Shown one piece after another: positions 49,128 to 60,141 of a stretch of 64,000 nucleotides of DNA; within the stretch, counting starts at the first letter, position 1, and every line of letters begins with the position of its first letter. This DNA is from Citrus sinensis. Taxonomy: Eukaryota > Streptophyta > Magnoliopsida > Sapindales > Rutaceae. Location: contig NC_068564.1 in assembly GCF_022201045.2 (NCBI RefSeq), forward strand, positions 29,913,001-29,977,000. The letters are read 5' to 3'. The notes under the pieces were generated by a model, which did not search any database, was not told the origin of the DNA, and saw only the letters and a list, made by a program, of their open reading frames with translations. Made by a program: the position numbers and the translations under genes.

Positions 49128-50293
49128 TCCTCATTGCTTTGTGGCATATCTCTGCTGCATGTGAAGCTACATATCCATCACTACCTGGTGAGGCTTTGTA
49201 TGTAGAGAAACGCTTAATCCTAAAATTTATTTCTCTTCTGCAATATGTAATCATAGAACAAAAATTCATGGGGTGACTCACATTATATTTGTACAAAGGA
49301 ACAGTTTAAAGGGATGAATTAAAGTTGTACATATTTCTTTCTTCTTTTCATTTTCACTTGATTGCTGTATTGTGTGACAAATTCACAAGTCACTATAATG
49401 TACATAAATATTGGAATTTGTAATTGCATGCTAACAATTGTATCATTGATTTTTGTTCAATGGTCCATCATGGCTAGGTCGCCATATGAAGCATTATATT
49501 CCTGGCAAGAGAAGTTGTTATCAATCGTTACCCCTCTAATAAAGTCCTCTTGATTTTTGGGTCCTCTATTGGCAGCTAGTTCTTGGGACAGCGTAACGCG
49601 AGGCAATTTCCAGTTGTCCTCCCCGTTTCATTAGAAGGTGGAAGAAACAAAAAAAATTCAAAAATAGTATAGTTTTACCCAGTTTCAAAAGTTTCAGTCT
49701 AGTAGGAGCATCTACAATTGATTTGCTTCCAATTTCATTTAAGCCTAAATGTCAGCCGGGGTATTAACAATTTGTGGTCTAATAAACATGGATTAATTGA
49801 TGATGCTCTGTTCTGCTATGATCAGCGACAATAGAAGGGGGGGTGGGGAAGCCCTATGTAAAGTAATGATAGTTAATTAGTCAGTTCATAACTAAAACTT
49901 TAAAGAAAAGCTTCGACTGAACACGGTTTCTTTAAAAAGGTAATCTTTATGGGGGGCCCCAATGTTCTATTTTCTGTACATGATGAAATTGAAATCTTGG
50001 GTGCTCGCTTGTGTAGTTTTGTTCATTTGGACGGTTTAGATGAGCTGAATAGCTAGGTATTTCTGTCAGTCGATATCAAGCAGTTGGCCAGCATCCCAGA
50101 TTCTTTGGGAAACCAATAGCTTTCTCCGATGCCTTAAACTTAGAGAGGAAGTCATTAATGTTCTTATGCTGAATCAGAAGAGCATTAATCCAAAAGGAAA
50201 AAGTAAAAAGATTGCTCAAATAAATAAAAGTAACAGCATGGCATTATTTATAAACGTTCATTAATAGCCGGTTATACAGGAAATTAAGGCATA
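49128..50293. other. FYVE-SYLF 3' flank and spacer before the RBR array
   Basis: Presumed 3' UTR of the upstream gene and promoter of RBR copy 1. No other gene. Some G-rich runs occur near 49840. Confidence 0.5.
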
Positions 50294-52371
50294 ATGGGTA
50301 ACAAGATTGGCACGTTATTGACCAAAAGCAAGCTCAAAAAGCACAGGAAAGAAATGGAGGTAGTGACTTCAAAGGTGACTTAGGTGTAGTTTGTTTTTTT
50401 GTCTGAAATCTGAATAGACCTGAATTAGTCTGAATTCTGAATAGGTCTGAATGTCTGAATCTGAATAATATGTTTGTTTTTTTGTCTGAATCTCGAAAAA
50501 TAAGTATTAAGTTATTTGTTTTATTCAACTTAAAAAGCTGAAAATATGTACTTTTACATTTGTATCCTTATTAAATTTGAATGCCAAATAAATAATATAT
50601 TAAATACCACAATATTTTAACATTTATAAGTAAAACTATATTCAAGTGAATACATAATTATTTTAGAATTTTAATATATAAAATACCATAAATTTCAAAT
50701 TTTATCATATATAATATAAGAAGGAAAAAACATGGATATTTTTATGTGGGGTAAATATCTATAGGTGAGTTTTATGATAGACATGAAAAATAAATTATAA
50801 AACAGGGATATTTTTGACATTAGTAAGTAATTGACTTAATTCAGATTTCTCTATTAAGTAAAAAGCCAAAAAAATTAGCTTATTTTATTAAGTCAAAATT
50901 ATCTTAAAAGTCTCATTAAGTTATAAAAACAAACACCTCTAATTAACTTAATTAATTAAGTTAAGGCACTTTAAGTCATTAAGTTAAAAAACAAACGCCA
51001 CCTTACTCTGAGGTGAATGAAGAGCTTGAAGAAGCTTACTTGACTCCAAAATCACATGAGAGTCAGCTGACAGATGAAGAAACAGTTAATCTTGGAAAAA
51101 GGCGGTCTTCAAATGCTGAAACTGATGATGGGACTCCATCTTTTGTTTGTGAAATCTGTGTCGAATCGAGGTCACTTTATGACTCATTCAATGTAAAGGG
51201 CTGTTCCCATTTTAACTGTACTTCATGTGTTGTCCGCTACATAGCTTCCAAGCTTGAAGACAACATAACAAATATTTCTTGCCCGCAATTGGGTTGTGAA
51301 GCAAGGCTAGAGTTTGAGGACTGCCGTTTGATCCTTCCTGATGATGTGTTTGCCAGATGGGGACTTGCTCTATGTGAGTCTGCACTTGTTGGTCATAAAA
51401 AGTTCTACTGTCCGTATAAAGACTGCTCAATCATGTTGATCGATGAAGAAGAAGCTATCAGACAATCAAATTGTCCTCAGTGTAGGAGACTATTCTGCGT
51501 GCAGTGTAAGGTTCCTTGGCATTCGGAGTTTGATTGTTCCCAGTTTCAGAAATTGCAGAATCGCGGTGAGGATGACATGGTGGTTTCTTTAGCAAAGAAG
51601 AAGAAGTGGAAGAGGTGCCCAAATTGCAATTACTTTGTGGAAAGATCAGCCGGCTGCTTTTATATGAAGTGCAGGTCTGCTTATAATTTTCTGTTCAGAC
51701 TAATACCTGAATTTGGTTTATAGTATTTTACTTGATGATACCATTGAGGGTCCTAGCAAGCTTGGTCGCAAGTTTATTACACATAAATTTCTGTGTTGTC
51801 ATCGTAATTTTTTTATGCTTGAAAACTTTTGACTCATATGTTTCACTATATATATAGACACACACATATCTTTTCATCCATTCAACCACCACAATTATAT
51901 TTATGTCATTTTATTCAAGGTGCTTCTCATTTTGAGAAGCACATGTGGTTTCCAAATAATCATATGTAGTATATCTTTTCTAAAATTTGTATTTGCAACA
52001 AAAAGACATTCAGCGATGAATTTGTTAAATCACACGGTTTCTAAACATCACTATGTAATGCATTTAAATTGTACAGTTTTAAAGACAAATAATTTTACGT
52101 GTGTGTGTGTCTTGAGGAATTTTTTGACTTAAAAACCCTAGACTTATGTTCTCTGCTGGCAAGTGTCAGTTACTTGTCTTTGGTTTCTGTACTCAAATTC
52201 CTGAAAAAATTTAGCTCTGCTTCTACCAAAACTAACCATATTGTGCAGTTGAATTGATTTCTTTGTTCTGCTTCCATAAATCAATGCAGGTGCGGGAATG
52301 CGTTCTGCTACGACTGTGGAGCTCGCTTAATTACTACTACTCGGTGCCCCGGTTGTAATCATCAGAATTAA
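50294..52371 (+). CDS. RBR-type E3 ubiquitin ligase, copy 1, coding exon split by a MITE
   Basis: RING1-IBR-RING2 ligase of the compact plant type. Coding parts: 50294-50382, then a 620-bp MITE with its TTA duplication (50383-51005), 51006-51674 and 52290-52371. Without the MITE these sum to 840 nt, 279 aa, starting MGNKIGTLLTKSKLKK. As it stands, the piece after the MITE has no ATG: it opens at GTG 51013, with an in-frame stop upstream inside the element. Unspliced translation from 50294 stops at TAG 50381-50383. RING1 (CEIC...GCSHFNC), IBR (YCPYKDC...CPQC...FCVQC) and RING2 (CPNCNYFVERSAGCFYMKC) keep their zinc ligands and the catalytic Cys in SAGC. Splicing 50374 to 51013 would also be in frame (274 aa). 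A copia element lies in the 3' UTR. Confidence 0.8.
50383..51002. mobile_element. 620-bp PIF/Harbinger-like MITE inside RBR copy 1
   Basis: The left tip GGTGTAGTTTGTTTTTTT matches the complement of the right tip (GGTGGCGTTTGTTTTTTAA) at 16 of the 18 compared bases. A TTA triplet flanks both sides (50380-50382, 51003-51005). The interior is AT-rich with repeated TCTGAAT units on the left and TTAAGT units on the right, and has no coding content. The TTA duplication suits PIF/Harbinger; no 8-bp hAT-type duplication is present. Confidence 0.88.
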
Positions 52372-52453: not shown

Positions 52454-52782
52454 TTTTAGAATTAATAGGTTGTTTGGCAAGTGAGAAAGTGAAAGAAAAT
52501 TAACAAAGAAACTTTAACTGAATTGATTTATTATTGATTAAAAACTCAAGCTTAACACTGAAAACGTGTTAGCAAGTATTTATAGTTACATTAAGCTGAA
52601 AACTAAAAACAGAGCTAATCGTTTGCTGTATTAACAAACTAATCCAACTTCCAATCATAACAAGCCAGCTGGATAATCTGTTACAGCTTTAGCAACTACC
52701 CAATCTAGCTCAGCAGCTTCATCTGCAGCTTATACACGTCACCAGCTAAGCTAGTACAGCAGCTTCAGCTATACTCTTAACA
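52454..52782 (-). repeat. 3' LTR of the copia element
   Basis: 329 bp. On the minus strand it starts TGTTAAGAG and ends AATTCTAAAA, so the 3' tip is not the usual CA. It differs from the other LTR at two positions, near 52680 and 52715. Confidence 0.95.
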
Positions 52783-52795
52783 TCCCCCCTCAAGC

Positions 52796-55700
52796 TCAGC
52801 CTAGTGATGTGAGGGTGAGCTTGTCTCTGAGATAATGAAAAGGATGATAGGCTAAAGCTTTAGTAAGGATATCAGCTGAGTTATGAGAACTAGGAACATA
52901 GCTGATCTGAAAGTTTTGATTAGCAACCTTCTCTCGCAAGAAATGAACATCCAGCTCAATGTGTTTAGTTCGAGAGTGGAATTTCGGATTGCTTGCTAAG
53001 GCAGCTGCACTTTGGTTATCACACCAAATGACAGGAGTAGAGACTAGAGAAATGCCAATTTCAGTCAACAAGGACTTGAGCCACAAAACTTCAGATGCAG
53101 CCATTGCTAGAGCTCGATATTCAGATTCAGTGCTGGACCTGGACACTACTCCTTGTTTCTTAGAACACCAAGAAATCATATTGGGGCCAAAGTAAACACA
53201 GTACCCAGCAATTGATTTTCTGTCATCCCTATCAGCTGCCCAGTCTGCATCACTGAAACAGTCGATGTGCAAGGGACCTTGATGAGAATACTGTAACCCC
53301 ATATGCATTGTACCCTTTAGATATCTAAGAATCCTTTTGCATGCTTGCCAGTGATTAATGGTTGGAGCAACTAGAAATTGGCTGAGTTTATTCACTGAAA
53401 ATGCTATCTCGGGTCTGGTCAGGGTAGCATACTGGAGAGCTCCAATTGTGCTTCTATACAAAGTGGCATCAGCAAAAAGCTCACTATCAGTTTTAGTAAG
53501 TGGAACATTTGCAGCCATTGGAGTGGAACAGGGAGTACAATCTTGCATCTTAACCTTGGTAAGTAAATCAGCAATATACTTTGACTGAGAGAGATGCAGG
53601 CCTGTATCAGTTTTGGTGACCTGAATGCCCAGAAAAAAATGCAGTTCTCCAAGGTCTTTTAAAGCAAATGTAGTCTGTAGATTGATAATGACTTGCTGAA
53701 TTTGTGCAGAGTTTGATCCTGTTACAATAATATCATCCACATAGACTAATACCAACAAGAGATGACCTTGAATCTTTTGGAAAAAGAGAGAATTGTCAGA
53801 CTTGGAATTCTGGAAGCCCCATTGTTGAGTTAATACTGTTTTTAATCTATCAAACCAAGCTCTGGGAGCTTGTTTGAGGCCATATAATGTCTTTTGAAGT
53901 TTACAGATGTGTGTAGGTTTGGATGGATCCACAAAACCTTCAGGTTGTTGCATATATACTTCTTCAGTAAGATATCCATTAAGAAAGGCATTATTAATGT
54001 CAACTTATCTCAGTGACCAGTGATTAAGAACAGCCAAGCTCAGAACAAGTTTAACTGTAGAAGCCTTCACCACTGGACTGAAGGTCTCATTGTAATCAAT
54101 GCCTTGAGTTTGGTGGAAACCCTTTGCTACAAGTCTGGCTTTGAACCTTGAGATACTGCCATCGGCATTGTGTTTAATCCTAAACACCCACTTGTTACCT
54201 ACAACTTTGACTGGATATGTAGGCTGAACAAGTGTCCAGGTTTGATTATTAACTAAGGCATGATATTCTTCTTTCATTGCCTGTAGCCATTTTGGATCTT
54301 TGAGGGCAGCAGAGACTGTGAGTGGTTCTGTGGATTTAGGATCACACTGAACTAGATAGGCCTTTTTTGGTTTGAATATTCCCATTTTGGATCGAGTAAG
54401 CATGGGATGCCCATCAGTGGATTGAGAAGGTGGAGATAGATGATGAATAGGTTGAGAAGGTGAATGATGATATATAGGACTGGGAATATGAGACAGGGGC
54501 TGATTTTCAGAGCTGAATAAATGTGAGTTGGAGGCTGAATCAGTTGCTGAAGGTGTAGATTGAGAGGGTGATCTATCAAGTTGTGCAGCAGTCTGTGATA
54601 AGGTAAAAGAAACAAAAGGGTTTGAAGAACCAGATTCTTGCAAAGAATTGTAATATGATTTTGCAGAGAAATTTTCAGCTGACTTGAAGGGAAAAGATGA
54701 CTCATCAAAAATAACATGATTACTGATATACACCCTGCCAGAAGGATGAAGACACTGATATCCTTTGTGAAGGGAGCTATAGCCAAGAAAGACACATTTT
54801 CCACTTCTAAACTGGAGTTTATGATGATTGTAAGGTCTGAGATAAGGGTAGCAAGAGCAACCAAAGACTTTCATGAATGTATAATCTGGTGATTTATGAA
54901 AAAGTTTCTCAAAAGGTGATTGATTGTTGAGAACAGGTGTAGGAAGTCTATTAATAAGGTATGTGGCTGTATGGAATGCATTCCACCAGAATTTGAGTGG
55001 CATGTGAGCTTGAGCAAGAAGTGTAAGGCCTGTTTCAACAATATGCCTATGTTTCCTCTCTATTCTCCCATTTTGATGATGGATATAAGGGCAGGGATGT
55101 CTAAATTGGATACCCTGATCAGAAAGATATGACACAAAAGGCCTGAATTCTCCACCCCAATCAGTTTGCAAACATTTAATTTTCAAGTTCAGGCAATTTT
55201 CAATCATGTTTTTGAATTCAATAAAGGCTGACAAGGTTTTGGATTTTGCAGTGAGAGGAAAGATCCAAGTGTATCGAGTGTAGTCATCTAAGATGGACAG
55301 ATAGTAGGTGTAACCTTGTGAAGAGGTAATGGGAGCTGGTCCCCAAAGGTCAGCATGTAGTAATTCAAGGGGCTGAGTGGTTGAAGTTTCAATGGAGGGA
55401 AAATGCTGCATATGACACTTGCCTAGTTGACAGGCATCACAGAACTGTGTTTTGATATCTTTGGGAAGAATAAAATTTGAGTTCAGGCATTTCATGATCT
55501 GTTTTAAGGCATGAGTAGTTGGATGACCCATTCTTTTGTGCAGTAAACTATAATCAACATGCTTGTTATATGAAGCAAAGTGAGCCATATGGACATTCTT
55601 ATTGATTTGAGAATTATTTACAAGCATATAAGAGTGAAACTTAGTATCAAAGGAACTAATTGAGTAAACATAGACATTGGAGCTGCTGGAAATGTATTAA

Positions 55701-57378
55701 AAACAGACTCAGAAGTGGTTGACACTGGGAACACTGAACTGGAGTTATCACAGACTACATTTAGGCTTGAAACTTGATAAAGACCTCCTCTAGCAATCCC
55801 CTTGAGCAATGTGATTCTTGAATTCTTGTCCTTAACAAAACAAACATGGTTGTAAAACTCAATAAAAACACTGTTATCAGCAAGCAATTTGGAAACACTA
55901 ATAAGGTTTTTAGTAATTTTAGGGACATGCAGAACATGATTTAGGTATATAGGTATTGTAGTCAAGGTTTTAACAGCAACAAAACCAACATTATGAATAG
56001 GCAGCCCCATACCATTTCCTACATGTAGTTTTTCAAGGCCATGGTAAATTGAGCACTTAGAAAGTATACCTGCATCTTGAGCAATGTGATTTGTTGCTCC
56101 AGAGTCAAGGTACCAGGCTGGATAAGCTACATTGCTGAAGTTTGTCAATTGTGCAGAGGGAGAGACATTATGAGGAATGCCATAATTTCCAGCATACATG
56201 TTTGCTGTTGGAACACCAGTATAATCACCATTTGCACTTGGAAAGTCAAAGGCACCTTGAGGATTCATGAATCCTGGATTCTGATAGGCAACATAGCCAA
56301 AGAAAGGTCCAGTCGGTCCAGCTTGCCTGGGAAAGTTGGGTCTGAATCCAGATCCAAAAGCAGAATTGTTGTATCTAGAACCTCTACCAAAATAATTCTG
56401 ATTATTTCCAGGGAAACCTCTATAATTTTGACCTCCACCTCTTGGCCTGAAACCACCAAAGCTTTTGTTTCTAGGAATAAACCCTTGATTGAATCTATGT
56501 TTGCACTTATAAGCTCCATGGCCTGGAATGTAACAGATTTGACACACAACATCTCTTCCAGGACCAGTATTCATGTTCTGGTTGTTATCATAAACACCAA
56601 AATTTCCAGCACCTACATTTTTCTGATTATATCCAGATCTATTATAACCTTGGCTTTTCTGAGCAAAATTTGCTGTCATATCATGCTGAGGTTCATTATG
56701 TGATTTTCCTTTGCTCATTTCCAACCTAGTTTCATGACTAAGTAACATAGAGTACACCTCTTCAGCAGTAAGTGTCTCTTTTTCCAGTCTAGTAAGTATA
56801 TTTGTGACTAAGGATTCATAGTTTTCATCCAATCCAGTAAGCAAGTGCATAATCAGTTCATTCGAAGTAATTGGATTACCTCTAATGGCCAAGCTATCAA
56901 CAATTTTCTTCATCTTGTTGAAGTAATCACTGATGGAGAGTGATCCTTTCTTTGTTGATTAAATCTGCATCTTTAAAGGCAGATATCTTGCTTTGGATTG
57001 TGACATGAAGATTCCAGCAAGCATCTCCCAAAGTTCAAGTGATGTTTCACAATTGATCACCATGATCAATACATTGTCCACCATTGACGAAAGCAGCCAG
57101 CTCTGCAGAAGTTTGTCAGTTTTCATCCATAAGATATACTCTGTATTTTCCTGCTTCTGTGATGTTCCAGCTCCAGATCTTTGAAGTTCTTGAATAGAAT
57201 CAGTGAGATAACGTTCTGGACACACACTCTCACCATTGATAAAGCTCTCAAGTCCATTGGCGATGATCGATGTTCTAACATGAGCTTTCCACACCAAGTA
57301 GTTTGATCTATCGAGTTTTGCAGGTTGAACAAAGTTGAATGAAAGTGATGAGGAAACTATATGATTAGATCCTGACAT
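52796..57378 (-). pseudogene. copia gag-pol, broken by two stops and a frameshift
   Basis: One gag-pol reading frame, now in pieces. In order: gag with a CCHC knuckle (CQICYIPGHGAYKC), protease (LDSGATNH), integrase (HKRMGH...FCDACQLG zinc part; DLWGP, QTDWGGEF and an IERKHR glutamate), reverse transcriptase with YVDD, and RNase H (SDADWAAD, STESEYRAL), ending at the TGA 52796-52798. Breaks: TAA at 56959-56961 within gag, a one-base-type frame change at about 55640-55700 between protease and integrase, and TAA at 54005-54007 in the RT, just before a VDINNAFLNG-like segment. The likely gag start is the ATG at 57376-57378. An earlier ATG overlaps the LTR edge and primer site. The element could not make a complete polyprotein itself. 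Confidence 0.93.
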
Positions 57379-57398
57379 AGGTGTTAGCTCTGATACCA

Positions 57399-57727
57399 TT
57401 TTAGAATTAATAGGTTGTTTGGCAAGTGAGAAAGTGAAAGAAAATTAACAAAGAAACTTTAACTGAATTGATTTATTATTGATTAAAAACTCAAGCTTAA
57501 CACTGAAAACGTGTTAGCAAGTATTTATAGTTACATTAAGCTGAAAACTAAAAACAGAGCTAATCGTTTGCTGTATTAACAAACTAATCCAACTTCCAAT
57601 CATAACAAGCCAGCTGGATAATCTATTACAGCTTTAGCAACTACCCAATCCAGCTCAGCAGCTTCATCTGCAGCTTATACACGTCACCAGCTAAGCTAGT
57701 ACAGCAGCTTCAGCTATACTCTTAACA
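57399..57727 (-). repeat. 5' LTR of the copia element
   Basis: 329 bp, directly followed on the minus strand by the initiator-tRNA primer-binding site. Two substitutions distinguish it from the 3' LTR (0.6%). Confidence 0.95.
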
Positions 57728-58431: not shown

Positions 58432-60141
58432 ATGCACAAAATTAAGACACCCCAAATGAAGCCCACTCCACCGCATGGCACAACAAAGAACACTGCAATT
58501 TCCATTGAGCAGTGCAATGAACAAAGAGGCCTACAATCGGCTCAAAACCTCATTAATCTGGAAGACTACTACGATGACGACGACGACTTGCATGTACTCA
58601 ATTTTCTGCCTAACGACACTCATTTTGGGAAAAGAAAGAGACCATTTTCGGTTCATCCAATGACTGATAATGGGCAGTCTTCAAATTCCAAAAATAACGA
58701 TCCTTCTTCTTTTGTTTGAGAGATTTGCATGGAGCCCAAGTCAACAAATGAGCTGTTTAGCATCGAGTTTTGTTCTTATTCTTACTGCACTGATTGTATT
58801 GTCAAGTACGTGGACTCAAAGCTGCGAGAAAGCATTACATCAATCCGCTGCCCCGTAACAGAGTGCAAGGGCGGCGTGTTAGAGCCAGAGTTCTGACGCA
58901 AGATAGTCCCAAAAGAAGTGTCTGATCGATGGGGCAATGCTTTGTGTGAGGGTGTAATTAATGGGGCTGAAAAGTTTTATTGCCCTTTCAAAGATTGCTC
59001 TGCGCTGTTGATTAATGATGGACTAAAGAATATGAAGGAATCAAAGCGTCCTTATTGTAAACGAATGTTTTGTGCTCAGTGTAAGGTTCCTTGGCATGCA
59101 GGGATGAGGTGTGAAAAGTTTCGGAAGTTGAATAAGAACGAGAAAAATAGTGAAGACATGGAGTTGATAAAGTTAGCGGAGGAAAAGAAGTGGAAGCGGT
59201 GCCCTCATTGCAATTACTCTGTGTAAAGATCAGCTGGTTGCTTATATAGGATGAGCAGGTCCTCTTTATTTTCTTCGGCGATTTTCTTTTTCTTTTTCTT
59301 TTTTTTAATATGACATTACAGATGCAAATGATTTTAGGTTTTGTTGTTAGTTTAAAAACGATAATGATGGGGACATATAAGATAAAAATTTTGGTATATA
59401 TGTAACCCTTCAATAGACGATAATGATAATGGAAAAAAAAAAACTTGCAAAAATGTATAATCTTAGGTTCATTTGATTCGCTGCCACTAGTCAAGTATTG
59501 CCATTGCCATTTATTAATTTGGAGTAACATTTAACAGTTTTGCTATCATATATCGGCCATGCTTGGTATATTGACATGTCATAGATTATAAGTTGGAGCG
59601 GTGTGAAAAAAAAAAAAATTATGAAATAAAAGTTAATTGTGCATATTAAAATATAATTTTAGCAAAAATGATAAAGACATTATTATTTTTTTATTTTAAA
59701 AGTAATAGATCAAATCAATTTAACTTTTAAATCATAACAATTAATATTTACCAAATAACTTAGTGTTGTATCTTTTAAATTATAATTTTCCAACTTCAAA
59801 TACCAAACAAGATTTAAGAATGTTCATTACTTAGTTGTGAAAATTTGCAAGAACTTTTATTTCTTTGAGACCCTCATGTGATTAATTCCAAATTATACCA
59901 TACAAATATAGTTTAATACTCAGTCTCTCACCACTTTTTTTTTTTTAAAAAAAAAAATTCCCTTTCTATCACCGACGTTGATCTTAGGTGTGGAACTGCA
60001 TTTTGCTACGAGTGCAAACAATCATTTGATCATCGCGAGTATAATTGTGCTTGCGATTCAAATTTCACCCTTAGAGGTATCCTTCACAATTTTACTTGCT
60101 TCTGCAGGCACTTGGAGAAGGCGATAGAATGTTCAAAGTAA
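58432..60141 (+). pseudogene. RBR E3 ligase, copy 2, decayed
   Basis: Same two-exon plan as copy 1: 58432-59258, then 59988-60141. In-frame stops are TGA at 58717-58719 (in place of the first RING1 Cys), TGA at 58894-58896 (where copy 1 has the Cys of FEDC) and TAA at 59224-59226 (in place of Glu in the RING2 segment). Further ligand losses are a RING1 His to Tyr (CSYSYC), an IBR Cys to Arg (SKRPYC) and a RING2 Cys to Ser (LYRMSR). The N-terminal acidic segment (NLEDYYDDDDDLHVLNFLP) closely matches copy 3. The second exon encodes RCGTAFCYECK and a longer tail than copy 1. It cannot encode a working ligase. Confidence 0.92.
59555..59812. mobile_element. AT-rich MITE, copy B, in the intron of RBR copy 2
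   Basis: Begins GGCCATGCTTGGTATA and ends near AATACCAAACAAG, so the tips are partly inverted (TTGGTAT). It aligns along its length with the element at 36894-37152. No exact target duplication was found. Confidence 0.55.

Follow-up and report, generated by a model that had tools for sequence, protein, structure and literature searches.

In maize, an exonic transposon, Ds, is removed by splicing. Removal of exonic transposable elements by splicing is also reported, with RNA evidence, for Evelknievel in CMT1 (PMC6238269) and for ONSEN (PMC12112155). A review records cases of MITEs inserted in plant exons (PMC12595863) and describes, among others, dTstu1, a Stowaway MITE located in the first exon of a flavonoid hydroxylase gene of potato, associated with loss of expression and with a visible phenotype, and able to excise. 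Introners are non-autonomous elements that become introns, and in one family (Florenciella) both splice sites derive from the sequence into which the element inserts; among animals and land plants, the same broad survey reports Introners in two groups only, both of them animals, and none in land plants (PMC9860276).

The locus described here belongs to Citrus sinensis and lies in a window of 64,000 nucleotides (C9:29913001-29977000), while the genome searched comprises 299.7 Mb in 11 contigs, nine of which are large. It carries a MITE in an exon of a gene for an RBR ubiquitin ligase and resembles Evelknievel, ONSEN and Ds in that a transposon sits in a coding exon, from which its removal through host or element sites is possible. 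In contrast to Evelknievel and ONSEN, whose published accounts include RNA evidence, the window MITE is a candidate for such removal, and both splice sites proposed for it belong to the host, outside the element. As with Introners, a non-autonomous element is the possible source of an intron; however, Introners act at many loci (PMC9860276), whereas here a single copy of a family is concerned, a candidate read from the DNA. The position in the first exon is shared with dTstu1, which differs in its Stowaway affiliation, visible phenotype and excision (PMC12595863). The element is similar to other PIF/Harbinger MITEs, such as the DTH elements reported in Citrus (PMC6466647) and mPing in rice (PMC12595863), in its 3-bp TTA/TAA target site duplication (TSD), short terminal inverted repeats and hundreds of copies, and also in that longer, transposase-bearing loci have an end in common with it (one end of the MITE, sought within the flanks of those loci); at 620 bp, it is longer than the mean of 431 bp given for Citrus PIF/Harbinger (DTH) MITEs (PMC6466647). 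A literature search on RING-between-RING ligases and Citrus returned, by title, nothing on this gene; among the works listed for MITEs and intronization there was only minor-intron work, and for MITEs, coding exons and Ds1 only work on sorghum. The phenomenon is already of known kinds and nothing in it is new in kind.

The interrupted gene

The coordinates of the locus are collected in Table 1. An earlier note on this DNA had described a 620-bp inverted-repeat element with a TTA duplication and had interpreted it as a MITE in a coding exon of an RBR ligase gene. Both points are confirmed, with exact limits and TTA on both sides; the ends form a 23-nt inverted repeat, 83% complementary, which takes in a few target bases. 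The insertion is genuine and far exceeds what chance could produce: at 39 other loci the sequence matches that of the element at 94–96%. A pattern for the empty site, allowing at most three mismatches, had no match in the plant's own genome and its reversed control had two. It is extremely unlikely that the insertion is an artefact of the assembly and absent from the plant: a single assembly carries the observation, but the exact TSD, the family-typical ends and six private differences among 40 aligned copies speak for a genuine insertion.

Table 1. Features of the interrupted RBR locus (window positions).
Feature	Position	Strand	Remarks
Upstream coding piece, exon 1	50294-50380	+	29-codon frame from ATG, begins MGN
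Donor of the earlier note, AAG/GTGACT	50375-50376	+	phase 0, host sequence; top-scoring donor scanned
Left TSD, TTA	50380-50382	.	
MITE, PIF/Harbinger (Tourist-like), 620 bp	50383-51002	.	77.9% A+T
Right TSD, TTA	51003-51005	.	
Rest of exon 1	51006-51674	+	linker, RING1, IBR, first half of RING2; frame open between 51013 and the donor
Acceptor of the earlier note, CTCTGAG/GTG	51011-51012	+	host sequence, GAG class
Alternative frame-keeping acceptor, GAGTCAG/CTG	51065-51066	+	scores better with donor 50375
Ordinary intron	51675-52289	+	TGCAG/GTCTGC ... ATGCAG/GTGC
Exon 2	52290-52371	+	RING2 end and stop codon (52369-52371)
Retrotransposon, taken to be Copia-type	52454-57727	-	LTRs 52454-52782 and 57399-57727

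The predicted product belongs to the RBR E3 ubiquitin ligases, with the order RING1-IBR-RING2 and a RING2 that would be completed by exon 2. Among the Pfam models, IBR (PF01485) is matched with an E value of 2.3e-12, while the matches to the RING models stay below the cut-offs. Among solved sequences, ARIH2 and ARIH1 come closest; the alignment with ARIH2 spans 39–221 and places the Cys of "AGC" under the Cys of "GGC" in RING2, which we take to be the catalytic cysteine. Beyond the insertion, the gene has an open frame, ordinary intron sites and a complete RING2, and a GT following TGCAG at the end of exon 1 is found in several RBR paralogues too.

The 29-codon frame that starts at the ATG at 50294 is closed by a TAG at 50381–50383, formed by two bases of the TSD and the first base of the MITE, and the nearest in-frame stop upstream of this ATG is at 50285. 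As the earlier note had proposed, the upstream frame and the RING-containing frame join without a shift once the MITE and one TTA are taken out, both pieces being in register. Its further claim that the downstream piece has no ATG of its own holds up to RING1, as the downstream frame reaches its first in-frame ATG only at 51433, past RING1 and within the IBR domain. A start codon inside the MITE was also considered and dropped, the last in-frame stretch of the element before 51013 containing no ATG.

It is plausible that the ATG at 50294 is the true start and that 50294–50380 encodes the true N-terminus. This position is supported because 8 of the 29 other loci of the family (L025–L028, L030 and L037–L039, the last three alike) also open with MGN in an open frame upstream; moreover, this ATG is preceded by A at -3 and followed by G at +4, the downstream piece offers no other in-frame ATG before RING1, and in two loci further along the same array, L017 and L018, the frame of exon 1 runs from an ATG through RING1 and IBR with no intron. 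Against these observations stands the reading in which the frame at 50294 is not the real N-terminus: the gene would have another start or have been broken beforehand, with the MITE lying in a leader or in a dead gene. In its favor, the two N-terminal pieces, compared by tblastn with the 30 family loci, matched beyond chance their own locus only, with no homology past MGN, so that homology does not prove this frame to be coding; agreement in register with the RBR frame is expected by chance in one case out of three; and L020 and L021 meet a stop upstream of RING1 before any ATG, making an upstream exon possible in parts of the family. In view of the features of the ATG and of the array neighbors, this reading is judged very unlikely. 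A DNA search of the genome with the upstream 433 bp found its own locus only, and the RBR exon had no relative among viral contigs, so that no outside orthologue is provided.

Transposon family and age of the insertions

The family search was performed with 801 bases of the region as query and 40 of 980 candidates were scored, giving 43 matches: the locus itself, the 39 copies already mentioned, two pieces of a copy that one of these interrupts, and a weaker match. The alignment of the window copy with the 39 others therefore represents the best-matching copies and no random sample, and within it the mean pairwise difference is 3.9%. The left end of the MITE, with up to three mismatches, occurs at least 306 times in the genome, while the reversed control pattern has no occurrence. 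The TSDs are readable in 38 of the 40 copies, that of the window included; 36 are identical triplets, 34 of which are TTA/TAA and two other matching triplets, while two are mismatched and a further two copies are unparsed. The ends of the family are GGTGGCGTTTG / CAAACGCCACC. One copy nested within another of the same family is present at L046 (C8:24159900-24161400).

Several features by which PIF/Harbinger MITEs are recognized were found, namely the 3-bp TTA/TAA TSD, terminal inverted repeats and the presence of a short, homogeneous element in many copies. A search of the genome with the Harbinger transposase model PF13359, in which 150 of 232 candidates were scored, gave at least 146 matches. 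Thirty of these loci were examined for the MITE; in two of them, L094 and L099, positions 1–349 of the MITE are found at 92.6% beside the transposase match, and the stretch common to both loci shows 8 differences in 823 positions. L096 matches positions 1–192 at 73.6% and L092 has a match of 25 bases, while the other 26 loci had no match to the MITE at E <= 1e-3. L094 and L099 are likely relatives of the autonomous source of the MITE, which is most readily interpreted as a deletion derivative of PIF/Harbinger because of its TSDs, its copy number and the transposase loci carrying its left end.

The window MITE differs from the family consensus at 15 of 620 positions, without indels, and six of these differences are private among the 40 aligned copies. 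The six are probably an upper bound for the changes that occurred after insertion, because the family has at least 306 copies and only 40 were aligned. With the substitution rate of 5.62e-9 used for Citrus in PMC6466647, the age of the insertion would be about 1.7 million years from the six private changes and about 4.3 million years from all 15, both values being rough.

The locus has undergone two insertions, since the MITE is accompanied by an adjoining retrotransposon that begins 82 bp past the RBR stop codon. The latter, presumably of the Copia type on the basis of its domain order, has matches to RVT_2, integrase and GAG-pre-integrase, the first of which is divided between two open frames. 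There are 2 differences between its LTRs in 329 positions, and GTTAG flanks both sides; the element is young, its age being roughly estimated at about half a million years.

Splice sites around the element

The earlier note had drawn attention to a GT-AG pair at 50375/51012, in the same phase on both sides, the use of which would delete the whole MITE and keep the frame. The pair is present in phase 0, and splicing would remove 638 nt (620 + 3 + 15) with the loss of five residues. A pre-existing intron between these sites was rejected: without the MITE it would be only 15 nt long. When all GT dinucleotides at 50297–50699 were combined with all AG dinucleotides at 50700–51149, 21 frame-keeping, stop-free pairs were found in the scanned range; in the scores of an approximate plant matrix, the best is 50375 with 51066, the pair of the earlier note is fourth, and the second-best donor is GAG/GTAGTG at 50360.

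A rival reading is that splicing through host sites removes the whole MITE as a new A+T-rich intron and that the ligase is still made, either by 50375 to 51012, with five residues lost, or by 50375 to 51066, with more of the linker lost and the RBR domain untouched, the second being the more likely variant. The 21 pairs are consistent with this possibility, as are the otherwise open gene and the A+T content of the MITE compared with that of the exon (57.9%), given that plant introns favor A+T-rich sequence. The cases of Evelknievel in Arabidopsis CMT1 and of ONSEN in an exon are the published precedents. However, the acceptor at 51012 is of the GAG class, the least used in Arabidopsis, where the order at position -3 of acceptors is reported as C >= T > A > G (PMC2375911). 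In addition, the scores of 51012 and 51066 are both negative with the approximate matrix, and acceptors within the MITE score higher (2.44 at 50805, against -1.47 and -4.39 for the two frame-keeping host acceptors), so that several of them would compete with the host sites.

The site was compared with 184 simulated insertions, obtained by putting this MITE in either orientation into TTA/TAA sites within exons from 14 of the RBR loci. In all 184, at least one frame-keeping GT-AG pair lay no more than 80 bases from the ends, with a median of 20.5 pairs per insertion in this range compared with 13 at the real site. The best pair scored at least as well as the pair of the earlier note in 161/184 insertions, and equalled or exceeded the best pair of the real site in 119/184; these comparisons of scores depend on the matrix, but the presence of frame-keeping pairs does not. 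The site is, therefore, not specially suited to splicing, and its sites are no better than chance surroundings, considering the GAG acceptor and the 161 simulated insertions that do as well or better. Because frame-keeping pairs accompany all the simulated insertions, the pair at 50375/51012 is no sign of rescue, and the proposal of a transposon-derived intron is not supported, owing also to the GAG acceptor and to the higher score of the CAG at 51066. More generally, frame-keeping GT-AG pairs near an exonic MITE are the rule in the simulations and should not be read as rescue.

Rescue of the ligase by splicing through host sites is regarded as unlikely. It is likewise unlikely that the MITE is a young working intron, from 50375 to 51066 or 51012, with the linker before RING1 trimmed and the ligase alive. 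If the MITE were spliced, it would represent a datable case, caught in the act, of a land plant gaining an intron from a DNA transposon.

Fate of the gene

The insertion of the MITE most likely made this RBR copy a null or pseudogene allele, by an ordinary insertional knock-out. A PIF/Harbinger MITE has landed at a TTA target within coding exon 1 of this RBR gene, and the primary transcript would carry a stop after 29 codons, upstream of the ordinary intron. Such a transcript would be expected to yield no RBR protein and would probably be a target of nonsense-mediated decay, while splicing across the MITE, if any, would be incidental and would occur through host sites. The earlier note had left the gene as either knocked out or rescued by splicing; the first part of this statement is favored, and the rescue intron is not supported by the sequence.

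The state of the exon downstream of the element bears on this question. In a neutral simulation of the 223 codons from 51013 at 1.0–2.4% divergence, the probability of acquiring no stop and no indel was 0.21–0.53, and that of also keeping the 20 cysteines from RING1 on was 0.07–0.35, depending on age and indel rate. The open exon mildly favors function or a young insertion and mildly disfavors a dead gene.

The gene is the outermost member of a tandem array of relatives. At the nucleotide level, five other loci are related to it, three on C9 within 24 kb and two on C5, while at the protein level there are 30 matches, its own locus included; 10 of the 30 contain stops, some of which could reflect a match running into an intron. 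The loss of one RBR copy would be an ordinary event, because the gene belongs to a tandem array and to a family with frequent broken copies, and the knock-out would be a further instance of a tandem gene family losing a copy to a MITE. The next member of the array, at window positions 58675–59265, is 48% identical over 196 residues and has three internal stops, and is probably a pseudogene. Another tandem RBR cluster is located at C3:36426657-36471947 (L025–L031 and L033), and MGN is found in the open frame upstream of RING1 in five of its eight members.
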